64,000 nt of DNA from Marinobacter salarius (lineage in GTDB: Bacteria; Pseudomonadota; Gammaproteobacteria; Pseudomonadales; Oleiphilaceae): contig CP007152.1 of NCBI GenBank assembly GCA_000831005.1, forward strand, positions 1,426,001-1,490,000, given 5' to 3'. A program made the translations under genes and the position numbers. Below are positions 7,603 to 12,335 of the stretch, in pieces; positions within the stretch are counted from its first letter, which is position 1, and each line of letters opens with the position of its first letter. The notes under the pieces are model-generated. The model saw nothing but the letters and a program-made list of their open reading frames with translations. It was not told the DNA's origin and ran no database searches.

Positions 7603-9475
7603 ATGCTGAACAAGTATCCGCTCTGGAAAAACCTGGTTATCGTGATCGCGCTGGTGATCGGGTTCGTCTATGCCTTGCCTAACGTCTTTCCTGACGACTT
7701 TGCCGTACAGATCACCGGTGCCCGGAGCAGTACCGAAGTCGATCAGCGGATTCTCGACAGGGCTGTTGATGCACTCGAAGCCAAGGGGATCCAGGTCAAG
7801 GAATCCGAGTTGCAGGAGCGCGACGCCCTGATTCGCCTGAACGACGCTGAATCCCAGCTGAGGGCTCGGCCGGTGGTGCAGGAGGCGCTTGGAAGGGATT
7901 ATCTGGTAGCCCTGAATATGGCGCCGTCAACACCGGGATGGCTGGAAAGCCTGGGCGCGGGCCCTATGAAGCTCGGTCTCGACCTGCGGGGTGGTGTTCA
8001 CTTCCTGTTGGAAGTGGATATGGAAACCGCCGTCGACCAGCGCCTCGAAGCCATGTCTGGTCAGATCAAGCGCGAATTGCGTGAAGAGCGTGTGCGCTAC
8101 CGCGGCGGCGATGTGGAAGGTAACCGCTCCATTGTTCTGAGTTTCCGTGACGAAAGTTCCCGCAGCGAAGCGTTTGACCTGATCCGTGACCAGTACAACC
8201 AGTTCCTGCTCGATGAGCAGACAGAGGACGGTGAGTACCTGTTGGTGCTGTCCATGTCGGAAGCCGAAGTGAAGTCCATACAGGACTACGCACTGGAGCA
8301 GAACCTGACCACCATCGTAACCGGGTCAACGAACTTGGCGTGGCGGAGCCTCTGGTGCAGCGCCAGGGTGCGGATCGCATCATTGTGGAATTGCCCGGTG
8401 TGCAGGATACCGCTGCGGCAAAGCGTGTACTGGGTGCTACGGCCAATCTGGAGTTCCGTCTTGAGGCCCGCCAGGATGCGTCATCAGCTGATATCGAGAC
8501 GTTCCCGTTCCGTGACAACCCTAACCGTGAAGCCCGTCTTGAGCGGGAAGTGATCGTCACCGGTGACAATGTCTCTAACGCACAGCAGGCCTTCGACGAG
8601 AACGGCCAGCCACAGGTCAACATCACCATGGACTCGGTGGGCGGCGATCTGATGAACCGTGCAACCCGCAACGCCATTGGGCGTCGCATGGCGGTCCTGT
8701 TTATCGAATACCGGACAGAGACGGAAGAAGTGGTTGTGGATGGTGAAACCCGCACGGTCGACAACCGCGTTGTCGAGAAGGGCATCATCAGCCTGGCGAC
8801 GATCCAGTCAGCGCTGGGAAGCAGTTTCCGGATTACCGGGCTGGATTCCATCCCGGAAGCGGCGGAGTTGGCATTGCTGCTGCGAGCCGGTTCGTTGGCT
8901 GCGCCAATGTACTTTGTTCAAGAGCGGACGATTGGTCCCAGCCTTGGGCAGAAGAACATTGATGCCGGCATGATGTCGGTCCTGCTCGGCTTTGTGTTGG
9001 TTCTCTGCTACATGGTGGTGTACTACCGTGGCTTTGGTGTGATCGCCAACATTGCGTTGACGCTTAACCTGATGCTGCTGATCGCCTGCATGTCGATTCT
9101 CTCAGCAACCCTGACGCTGCCGGGTATTGCCGGTATCGTGCTGACGGTGGGTATGGCGGTTGACGCAACGTGCTTATCTTCGAGCGTATAAAGGAAGAGT
9201 TGAAATCGGGCATACCGCCACAGTCGGCGATAAACTCCGGTTATTCCCGGGCCTTCGTTTCGATTTTTGATGCCAATATCACCACCCTGTTGGTGGCGGT
9301 GATCCTGTTCGCCATGGGGTCCGGCCCGGTGAAAGGGTTCGCGGTGACACTGTCGATCGGTATTCTTACGTCGATGTTCTCCGGGCTGATGGTCAGTCGC
9401 AGCATCGTAAATCTTGTATACGGCGGTCGACAGGTTGAAAAGCTGTCGATTGGGGGGAAACTGGCCAATGTCTGA
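7603..9475 (+). CDS. secD: Protein translocase subunit SecD (two frame breaks in this sequence)
   Basis: SecD with SecF uses the proton-motive force to help release exported proteins on the periplasmic side. Features: one N-terminal membrane helix, the motif [20 protein letters not shown], a large periplasmic domain, and the C-terminal five-helix block with [18 protein letters not shown]. Two breaks occur. Near 8316 one C is missing (atcgtaac for atccgtaac, restoring [16 protein letters not shown]). Near 9167 one A is missing (gcaacgtg for gcaaacgtg, restoring VDANVLIFE). The corrected protein has 624 residues, normal for the family. SecD is essential for efficient export, so real inactivation is unlikely. 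Its stop overlaps the secF start. Confidence 0.93.
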
Positions 9476-10424
9476 AGTTGAGAAGAAACCTATCGATTTT
9501 ATGGGCTTTCGGAAGATTGCTTCCGTTGTGTCCATTGCGCTGATTGTTGCTTCCATTGCGTTGCTGGCAGTGCGCGGCCTGAACCTCGGGCTGGACTTTA
9601 CCGGTGGTACCTCCGTTGAGCTGGAATACCAGCAGGCGCCCGCTCTGGACAATGTTCGCCAGACGTTGGAGGGTGCAGGATATGAGCAGTTTGTGGTCCA
9701 GAACTTTGGTTCGGACACCACGGTGCTGGTGCGGATGGCGGAGTCCGAGAACGACAAGTTGGCCGCTGAAGTCACGGCCGCGTTGTCGGCTGGTGGTAAT
9801 GAGCTTGAACTGGTGAGCTCCGAATTTGTCGGCTCCCAGGTTGGCGACGAGCTGAAGGAAGACAGTGGTCTGGGAATGCTCATTGCGCTGGCAGTGGTGC
9901 TGATTTACGTCGGTATGCGGTTCCAGTTCAAGTTCGGTATTGCCTCTGTTGTGCCACTGGCCCACGACGTCATCATTGTTCTGGGTGTGTTTGCCCTGTT
10001 CCAGTGGACGTTCGACCTCAGTGTGCTTGCAGCGTTGCTTGCGGTTATCGGTTATTCCCTTAACGATACCATCGTGGTGGCGGACCGGATTCGCGAGAAT
10101 TTCCGCAAGATGCGTGAAGGGGGCTCCGAGCACATCATCAACGAGTCCATTCACCAGACCATCAGCCGGACCATCAACACGTCCGGTACGACATTGGTGG
10201 TGCTGTTCGCCCTGTACTTCCTGGGTGGTGAAGCGATCAACAACTTTGCGCTGGCTCTCATCATCGGTGTGGTGGTGGGTACCTACTCATCCATCTATGT
10301 GTCAGCAAACCTGCTGGTTGCCCTGGGTGTGGCACGGGAGGACCTGATTGTTCCGCCGAAGGAAGGTCTTGCTGGGCAGGAAGAGGAAGAAGAGCAGCCG
10401 CCCGAGTGGTTGAACCGGATGTAA
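9468..10424 (+). CDS. secF: Protein translocase subunit SecF
   Basis: SecF pairs with SecD in the inner membrane. The 318-residue protein starts at ATG 9468, inside the last codons of secD. It shows the SecF core [15 protein letters not shown] near residue 40, the periplasmic loop, and the membrane block with [24 protein letters not shown]. The C-terminus is an acidic cytoplasmic tail ([12 protein letters not shown]). A strong terminator follows, so the queA-to-secF operon ends here. Confidence 0.96.
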
Positions 10425-10499: not shown

Positions 10500-11309
10500 C
10501 TAGCGAGGCAGTCGGCCCCGGAACGGGTGAAGTGTCTTGAGTACTTCACGGAACAGCTTGGGGTTTGCGACGATCAACTGCTTTGCTTTCTCCGTTGAGG
10601 GGTTGCCGGAGAAATCGCCGGTCAGAGCGCCGGACTCCAGTGCCAGCGTGACGCCGATGGCCAGGTCAGCCGGCTCAGGACGGAAAATGACAGCGGCGTC
10701 CAGATGGCCGGAAGCAACCCGGGCGATATCAAGGGCCACGCAACCTGCGGTTCGGAACATGCTGCTGTCACGGGCCAGCAAGGATGCCATCTCGCCCCAC
10801 ATCAGTGGGTCGTCAGAAGAGCGGGTCTGGTCGAGAAGATTGCTGACCACGGCTGCACGGTCGGCATGCTTGACGTCGCTGGTACGCACCCGCCGACTGT
10901 TTAGTGCAGCACCGTGGCCGCGACTGGCAGAGTATTCCTCACCGGTGACCGGATTGATCAGCAGCAGGTTCTCGGTGCGGTTGTTTTTCTTTTGCAGCAA
11001 CGCAACGGCGAAGTCAGGAATGCCGCGCAAAAAATTCTCACGTCCGAGTACCGGGAAAATGTGCCAGCTCTTGTCGTTACCGTCGGCGTCCGCCTCATTC
11101 AAAGGAGCGATGGCGTGGTCCTTGTAGGCTTTGTCGAGCTGTTCGGAAAAATTGTCGTAAATGGACTGTTCGACCCGCTCCAGTTGCCTGCGGCGGTCTT
11201 CGCTGTCGCCGTTGGGTTCCTGGCGTTCGAAGTGTGCTTTCAGATAGTCGGACCCCTGACGCGCGACGCGCAGGGCCATTTTGATTGCTGGTTGCATCTG
11301 AGTGTTCAT
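10500..11309 (-). CDS. SuhB-like inositol monophosphatase family protein with degraded metal site
   Basis: The 269-residue protein holds the suhB position (next to secF and trmJ) and begins MNTQMQPAIKMALRVARQG, as SuhB proteins do. Family features such as FLRGIPDFAVAL, SASRGHGAALNSRRVR and RTAGCVALDIARVASGHLDAAV are kept. The metal-binding motif that should read like DPLDGTTNF is FPVLGRENF (residues 85-93), so both aspartates are gone. The GEE motif upstream is replaced (HAIAPLNEA, residues 65-73). Only the aspartate of the WDLAAG-type motif remains (PADLAIG, Asp215). It is therefore probably not an active phosphatase. In E. coli SuhB acts with Nus factors in rRNA antitermination, and that role is reported not to need catalysis. 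There is no frame break here, and the motif is altered in frame. Confidence 0.85.
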   Translation of the reverse strand: MNTQMQPAIKMALRVARQGSDYLKAHFERQEPNGDSEDRRRQLERVEQSIYDNFSEQLDKAYKDHAIAPLNEADADGNDKSWHIFPVLGRENFLRGIPDFAVALLQKKNNRTENLLLINPVTGEEYSASRGHGAALNSRRVRTSDVKHADRAAVVSNLLDQTRSSDDPLMWGEMASLLARDSSMFRTAGCVALDIARVASGHLDAAVIFRPEPADLAIGVTLALESGALTGDFSGNPSTEKAKQLIVANPKLFREVLKTLHPFRGRLPR

Positions 11310-11481
11310 TATCCGGGTGTGTGAAGGCCGCATAGCATATCAAAAACTGACCCGCCTTGTATGTTTTTCCACTCCGCAATGTCACGGATGGCGCTGTATC
11401 AGGGCATGTCCGGAGAGGCGGGGAAGGGGGTAGATCTGCTATCATGCGCACCTTTCCAGTTTTTACAGAGATTCTACCGCC

Positions 11482-12335
11482 ATGCACAAGCCAGCTAAGC
11501 CCCTGGAGGCCCTGACACCTACAACGACCAGATCCGGATTGTCCTGGTTGAGACGTCCCATTCCGGTAACATCGGTGCGGTCGCCAGGGCCATGAAAAAC
11601 ATGGGGCTGGGAAACCTGTGGCTGGTAAATCCTGCGTCCTTTCCTGATGAGGCCTCCTACGCCCGTGCAGCGGGCGCTTCCGATATTCTCGACAAGGCCA
11701 CGGTTGTTTCGACTCTGGACGAAGCCATTGCCGATTGTGTGTGCGTTATGGGTACCAGCGCGAGAGGCCGAAAGGTCCCCTGGCCGGTTATCGCTCCACC
11801 AGACGCCGCGGCCAAGGCTTCGCAGCAGTCAGAAGCGGGGCAGGTGGCGCTGGTCTTTGGGCGTGAGAACCATGGGCTGAGCAATGAAGAGTTGCAGCGT
11901 TGTCATTTCCACATTCATATCCCGTCAAATCCCGATTACAGTTCCCTGAATCTGGCCATGGCGGTTCAGGTAATGTGCTATGAATTGCGTATGCATTATC
12001 TGAAAGGCCTTGAAGGTGGCGACGGCAGCCCATATCTCAAGCCTATGATGGTGCCCGGCGATGAAGGTTGGGATGTGCCGCCCGCGCCTGTCCGCGATGT
12101 TGAGGGTTTTTTCAGTCATCTTGAACAGGTGCTTGTGGATGTCGACTTTCACCGCCGGGACAATCCCCGTCAGTTGATGACGCGGCTGCGGCGGCTGTTC
12201 CAGCGTGCCGGGCTGGATCAGATGGAGATCAATATCCTTCGGGGAATACTGACCGCCGTCCAGAAGTCGGCTGGTGCTGCGGATACCGCAAAAAATACGT
12301 CAAGGGCTGGTTCAACGGCCGGTGAACAGGAATAG
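11482..12335 (+). CDS. trmJ: tRNA (cytidine/uridine-2'-O-)-methyltransferase TrmJ (frameshifted near the start)
   Basis: TrmJ is a SPOUT methyltransferase that methylates the 2'-OH of position 32 in tRNAs. The body is complete from [30 protein letters not shown] on, with the knot motifs [17 protein letters not shown] and [20 protein letters not shown]. The likely start, ATG 11482, is in another frame. One extra C in the C-runs between 11500 and 11512 joins the two (for example EAPDTYNDQ), giving 284 residues. If that repair is wrong, translation would have to start at the internal ATG near 11592, which would remove part of the fold. It is divergent from the suhB-like gene and 4 bases upstream of cysE. 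Confidence 0.88.

Follow-up and report, generated by a model that had tools for sequence, protein, structure and literature searches.

The suhB gene of Marinobacter salarius (10500-11309 on the minus strand of the window, that is, of the whole 64,000-nucleotide stretch analysed) encodes a SuhB orthologue of 269 residues, dead at its metal site, which is quite probably reduced to the transcription role as a non-enzymatic Nus factor. This reading is based on the SuhB residues of the protein, on synteny and on purifying selection, and the original prediction of a protein kept for a non-catalytic, Nus-type job thus gained support at the sequence level. The feature is not peculiar to the window genome but was traced through eight families, and it appears somewhat more probable than its converse that SuhB would be a dedicated non-enzymatic Nus factor in a sizeable share of the order (8 of the 44 sampled families).

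The alignment to E. coli SuhB confirmed the predicted loss of the metal site. In the window protein, FPVLGRENF (residues 85-93; 11031-11057, minus strand, as for all residues below) replaces DPLDGTTNF, with D84 changed to F85, D87 to L88 and T89 to R90. IAPLN (67-71; 11097-11111) replaces the GEE loop and is two residues shorter, the ligand E67 being gone or displaced (it aligns to A68 or L70, varying with the alignment run), and E47 (11169-11171) stands in place of the catalytic-site D44. Three of the four metal ligands (E67, D84 and D87) are replaced and only D215 (10665-10667), corresponding to D212, is clearly kept. E205 is also gone, and the places of D84 and D87 are taken by hydrophobic residues. 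The protein lacks the full set of an active inositol monophosphatase, i.e. the ligands E67, D84, D87 and D212 with the catalytic T89. The roles of the aligned SuhB site residues are assigned by analogy to human IMPase. Among 51 genus loci, residue 72, which follows directly on the former GEE loop, is E in 37, D in 8, Q in 5 and A in 1 (acidic in 45), and, judged from the alignment, E72 could conceivably act as a shifted first metal ligand. No displaced-ligand candidate for D84 or D87 was seen in the alignment, and both are gone regardless. Since the two-metal site is gone, inositol phosphates should not be hydrolysed by the family mechanism.

The fold itself is readily recognized. The protein matches PF00459 with 75 bits over 27, and the best NCBIfam family matched is PRK10757, with 105.5 bits against an equivalog cut-off of 332; because of this score below the cut-off, it was regarded as an orthologue only and not filed under that enzyme model. 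An AlphaFold model built from 31 sequences has a mean pLDDT of 91.8. The best PDB matches of this model with Foldseek are P. aeruginosa SuhB, then E. coli SuhB, including entries 6tqn (the rrn antitermination complex) and 6ib8 (the SuhB-AR2 complex). P. aeruginosa SuhB (8wip, 8wdq) is the closest solved structure, with 32% identity and a TM-score of 0.86 for 8wip; unlike the window protein, it has intact DPLDGT and GEE motifs, and it was crystallised with D-myo-inositol-1-phosphate according to the entry title. E. coli SuhB (6ib7, 6ib8, 6tqn), both a Nus factor and an IMPase, shares with the window protein the fold, the divergence from trmJ, P3, R139 and R141, and the basic residue and Leu at 251 and 254, but the identity is only 25% and the E67/D84/D87 and T89 site is absent from the window protein.

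The open reading frame lies exactly where the original prediction put it; a start at the in-frame ATG at 11333, 24 bases upstream, would lengthen the protein to 277 residues. The flanking ORFs were read as secD-secF on one side and trmJ-cysE-iscR-iscS on the other. In the ORF list, secF (9414-10424, plus strand) is convergent with suhB, a synteny shared by some of the other loci, and trmJ (11592-12335, plus strand) is divergent from it. As expected of a SuhB orthologue, the gene thus sits beside trmJ, in the order secF > < suhB, trmJ >, and E. coli suhB is likewise divergent from trmJ. Compared with Marinobacter iranensis (L209), the window contains one-base gaps with no compensating gap nearby at 8316, 9166, 11509, 14694, 14899 and 15068. 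Frameshifts seem to affect secD, iscS and the start of trmJ, and the N-terminal end of trmJ is found upstream of the called ORF, beyond the gap near 11509. These gaps in the neighbour genes of suhB are probably assembly errors.

All 163 genomes of the family were matched in the search, two of them (G076 and G279) only at paralogue level. We read 87 family loci, from 86 of the 163 genomes and all 16 genera; L045 and L055 belong to the same genome, and the 87 loci represent 86 distinct proteins. An intact DPxDGT at this locus in sister genomes would speak against the original prediction; the intact motif was found in 0 of the 87 loci, all of which are degenerate. Among the four ligands, none is kept in 33 loci, one in 53 and two in a single locus. 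E67, D84 and D87 are all absent in 84 of the 87, the 3 others keeping D87 alone (L113, L115 and L116), position 212 is acidic in 81 and position 44 is E in 71. We also analyzed 47 named copies (L208-L254), counted apart from the family and order counts. They are of the degenerate type and come from Marinobacter species, Halospina denitrificans, Halovibrio salipaludis, Vreelandella utahensis (by record title), a Hahella, an uncultured Oleiphilus and some MAGs, the Hahella and Oleiphilus records presumably sharing the family of the window. E67, D84 and D87 are absent and a basic residue is found at 251 in 47 of 47 named degenerate loci.

From 145 genomes drawn across the order, between one and five were read in each family, with family f37 covered more fully (49 of 60). 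Among the 47 family codes, f3 gave no match, f12 a fragment and f15 a paralogue, leaving 44 families for scoring: 36 have an intact SuhB and 8 a degenerate one. The 158 degenerate loci are distributed as 87 in f1, 49 in f37, 5 in f6, 4 each in f36, f38 and f44, 3 in f26 and 2 in f7. The intact set combines 75 loci of the order search with 31 named records and E. coli; of these 107 loci, 106 have all six site residues and one has E at 44. The 'degenerate' and 'intact' groups were defined after the site residues had been seen. The gene of the window itself (L003), a broken frame in G001 (L053), a paralogue match (L117) and the f12 fragment (L298) were excluded from the counts; a CysQ-like locus (L207) served as outgroup only, and two partly degenerate MAG loci (L261 and L263) were placed in neither set. 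In these two gammaproteobacterial loci the sites are partly lost, with D84 changed to Q or K and T89 to V or A.

Each of the 158 degenerate loci keeps at most three of the six site residues, and T89 is lost in 154, R184 in 158 and E205 in 158 of them. The ligands are eroded in combinations that differ by family. f26 and f44 have kept D84 and lost E67 and D87; f37 keeps D87 in 49 of 49 loci and E67 in 28 of 49, but all its loci lack T89 and D44, and 48 of the 49 have lost D84. f37 (L138-L182, L185-L187 and L060) can be described as a half-way state, suited to asking in which order the metal site eroded. In f15 (L188-L192), whose genomes measure 1.6-2.2 Mb, the best match of 5 out of 5 genomes is an intact IMPase paralogue with trmJ not nearby. 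Outside the order, 22 SuhB-type matches were read from a search of 134 genomes, namely the top 2 and 20 with lower scores; 21 have an intact site and 1 is degenerate, and high scores among the 134 genomes suggest that degenerate SuhB may be rare there. The degenerate one (L400), from another family of the class, is SuhB-like with Q44, E84, N87, Q89, E212 and K at 251; a trmJ match is absent from the stretch fetched around it.

Three PF00459 proteins are found in the window genome: the window SuhB, a CysQ-like protein (L002) and an IMPase paralogue (L001; G000:C1 499120-499830, minus strand). The paralogue is about 30% identical to the window SuhB over residues 69-256, and it differs by an intact D44/E67/D84/D87/T89/D212 site, by the absence of the P3/R139/R141/basic-251 set and by its position in a separate clade. 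A second, intact suhB in this genome, which would have spoken against the original prediction, was searched for and not found. Two or more matches exist in 121 of 124 genus genomes, the second being weaker and at paralogue level in the subset that was read.

In the SuhB tree, the 15 degenerate proteins included all fall inside the SuhB part, as expected of orthologues, and L001 groups with six other family paralogues (99*), apart from SuhB. The paralogues do not form one clade, L184, L188 and L191 joining a distant class-level SuhB match. In this tree, obtained by a quick method from an alignment that included the active-site columns, the 15 degenerate proteins have long branches and form a single clade (100*). 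The NusA tree requires 3 changes, with a single clade not rejected (p-AU 0.17), and the TrmJ tree (108 rows, quick method) requires 4, weakly supported. The number of metal-site losses may lie anywhere from 1 to 4, these trees suggesting 1 (SuhB), 3 (NusA) or 4 (TrmJ). A regain of the site seems unlikely.

While the metal ligands were lost in differing combinations, a non-catalytic signature is fixed throughout. This signature, made up of P3, R139, R141 and a basic 251, is complete in 158 of 158 degenerate SuhBs and in 99 of the 107 intact ones, and in 0 of the 21 paralogues with an intact site; its four positions were picked once the data had been seen. Taken singly, R139 is present in 2 and R141 in 1 of the 21 paralogues. 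In the window protein these correspond to P7 (11289-11291), R140-x-R142 (10884-10892) and R254, which together with L257 (10539-10550) occupies the place of the published NusA-AR2 contact K251/L254, the change from K to R being conservative. Because of this published contact, position 251 has a meaning independent of the signature: in E. coli SuhB the KL251/254AA mutation weakened AR2 binding more than a thousandfold, the dissociation constant rising from 94 nM to 141 uM (PMC6614801). A basic residue at 251 was found in only 5 of the 22 class-level matches, 21 of which have an intact site, and is therefore not demanded by the fold. L254 is less well retained (0.50). R184, a residue mutated in an E. 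coli study that PMC6614801 cites on RNA polymerase binding, is R in 0 of the 158 degenerate proteins.

Retention was also compared over the 98 positions conserved in intact SuhB. Retention is 0.23 at the ten active-site positions against 0.59 at the remaining 88 (p 0.0005, family-weighted). The comparison is partly circular, since six of these active-site positions had served to define the degenerate group; the ten were named before the test, though retention values of many positions had already been seen. The four positions that did not define the group are E205 (0.00), A188 (0.13), L86 (0.35) and G186 (0.71). Mean retention does not differ between SuhB-specific positions (0.56, 32 positions) and general IMPase positions (0.57, 37 positions; p 0.92), and a general split in which catalytic positions are lost and SuhB-specific ones kept on average is unsupported. 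As judged from these alignments, the retention signal sits in particular positions and not in the average of the SuhB-specific ones.

The window genome encodes a full NusA whose AR2 is 61% identical to that of E. coli and includes the W490/F491 pair, named as the recognition residues in PMC7171158. AR2 (at least 91% of columns filled) with W490/F491 is found in 27 of 27 NusAs from genomes with a degenerate SuhB; the pair is also present in 18 of 18 NusAs with an intact SuhB and in the single one from f15 (genome G137), where SuhB was not found at the locus. Four NusA loci (L360, L366, L373 and L376) were excluded, the SuhB of those genomes not having been read. AR2 and W490/F491 do not discriminate, since they occur in f15 too and AR2 is present in class members without K251. 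The idea that AR2 is missing where K251 is missing was refuted: among 20 class-level genomes, one had no NusA match, one a match ending at 419 and 18 a match reaching into AR2 (18 of 19). As most class-level genomes have AR2 despite few basic residues at 251, K251 is not a universal way of binding AR2. The intact SuhB-type matches outside the order (L402-L418) are mostly without K251, and the SuhB-NusA contact may differ in these genomes. A boxA-like CGCTCTTTAAAA lies 130-140 bases before the one 16S gene found in the window genome (2 mismatches; mean of shuffles 0.04).

From these sequence comparisons we infer NusA binding, antitermination and absence of activity for the window SuhB. The IMPase fold is kept, presumably with its dimer, and the C-terminal helix (R254/L257) would bind NusA AR2. 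SuhB binding would free NusA from autoinhibition and help to hold NusB/NusE and boxA RNA on RNA polymerase, with the outcome that rRNA transcription would resist Rho and pre-rRNA would fold correctly. Cellular inositol-phosphate hydrolysis would come from the intact paralogue L001 or from another enzyme.

That suhB is a pseudogene in decay, or that its sequence is an artefact, could be suspected from the uncompensated one-base gaps in nearby genes, from the broken frame of G001 and from the single in-frame stops in G113 and G037, but this explanation is already refuted by the data and its probability is negligible. The median dN/dS of suhB is 0.032 (range 0.015-0.081; 66 usable of 91 pairs from 14 close-relative loci, L005-L007 being excluded as near copies); the trmJ control at the same loci gives 0.026 (5 usable of 14 comparable pairs). 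With a dN/dS of about 0.03, suhB is not decaying. The window protein is found at 99-100% identity in three other genomes and at 94-98% in ten more. Its coding part is gap-free against M. iranensis; the one gap (10501) affects the stop codon and borders a diverged stretch. In the genus, 124 of 124 genomes were matched, 121 near full-length (the two with stops included); the exceptions are G063 (partial match), G001 and G076 (82% complete, paralogue-level match only). Relatives' matches, dN/dS and the gap-free coding part rule out strain-specific loss, assembly error and pseudogene, and the absence of E67, D84 and D87 in all named degenerate loci points the same way. Loss of catalytic motifs under purifying selection is what is expected of a pseudoenzyme.

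Such a pseudoenzyme might have left the Nus complex and been neofunctionalised, for instance regulating L001 through mixed dimers or acting with another partner. The replaced segment 82-93 may have a new use, being well conserved in the genus (0.92 versus 0.83 for the whole protein over 51 loci; it ranks 41st of 258 windows, 40 of 257 other 12-residue windows being equal or better), and the universal loss of R184 and the usual second, paralogue-level match in the genus also fit. However, the NusA-contact residue with P3, R139 and R141 is strictly retained, the locus is conserved and NusA AR2 is present, and we hold this explanation to be unlikely. Still less probable is an enzyme with a changed site, in which D215, E47 and perhaps E72 with others bind one metal and act on another substrate. 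The frequent acidic residues at 212, 44 and 72 would suit it, but the window SuhB has lost D84, D87, T89 and E205, E205 is E in none of the degenerate proteins, and the families lose differing combinations, which is not the pattern expected of a shared new site. The non-enzymatic Nus factor thus remains the preferred reading.

Pseudophosphatases generally resemble the degenerate SuhBs in having a phosphatase fold without catalytic residues and in being under selection. Those among the open-licence papers listed are eukaryotic, and here the protein would be a bacterial transcription factor. From E. coli mutants, SuhB catalysis is reportedly already known to be dispensable. No report of a naturally inactive SuhB was found among the papers listed in searches of the open-licence literature, and the new part appears to be the natural, clade-wide loss of SuhB catalysis, not a first proof of dispensability. 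The advance would be evolutionary and predictive.

In the degenerate families, reading SuhB by homology as an inositol phosphatase would mislead, and metabolic models would err. PMC12604733 lists Acinetobacter baumannii suhB among the genes needed for in vivo fitness in a transposon screen. The degenerate lineages amount to a natural mutagenesis: P3, R139, R141 and K251 (E. coli numbering) survive the loss of catalysis and therefore predict the SuhB surfaces used in the rRNA antitermination complex. If the reading is true, evolution would have separated the two functions of SuhB and marked, position by position, the residues that serve transcription.
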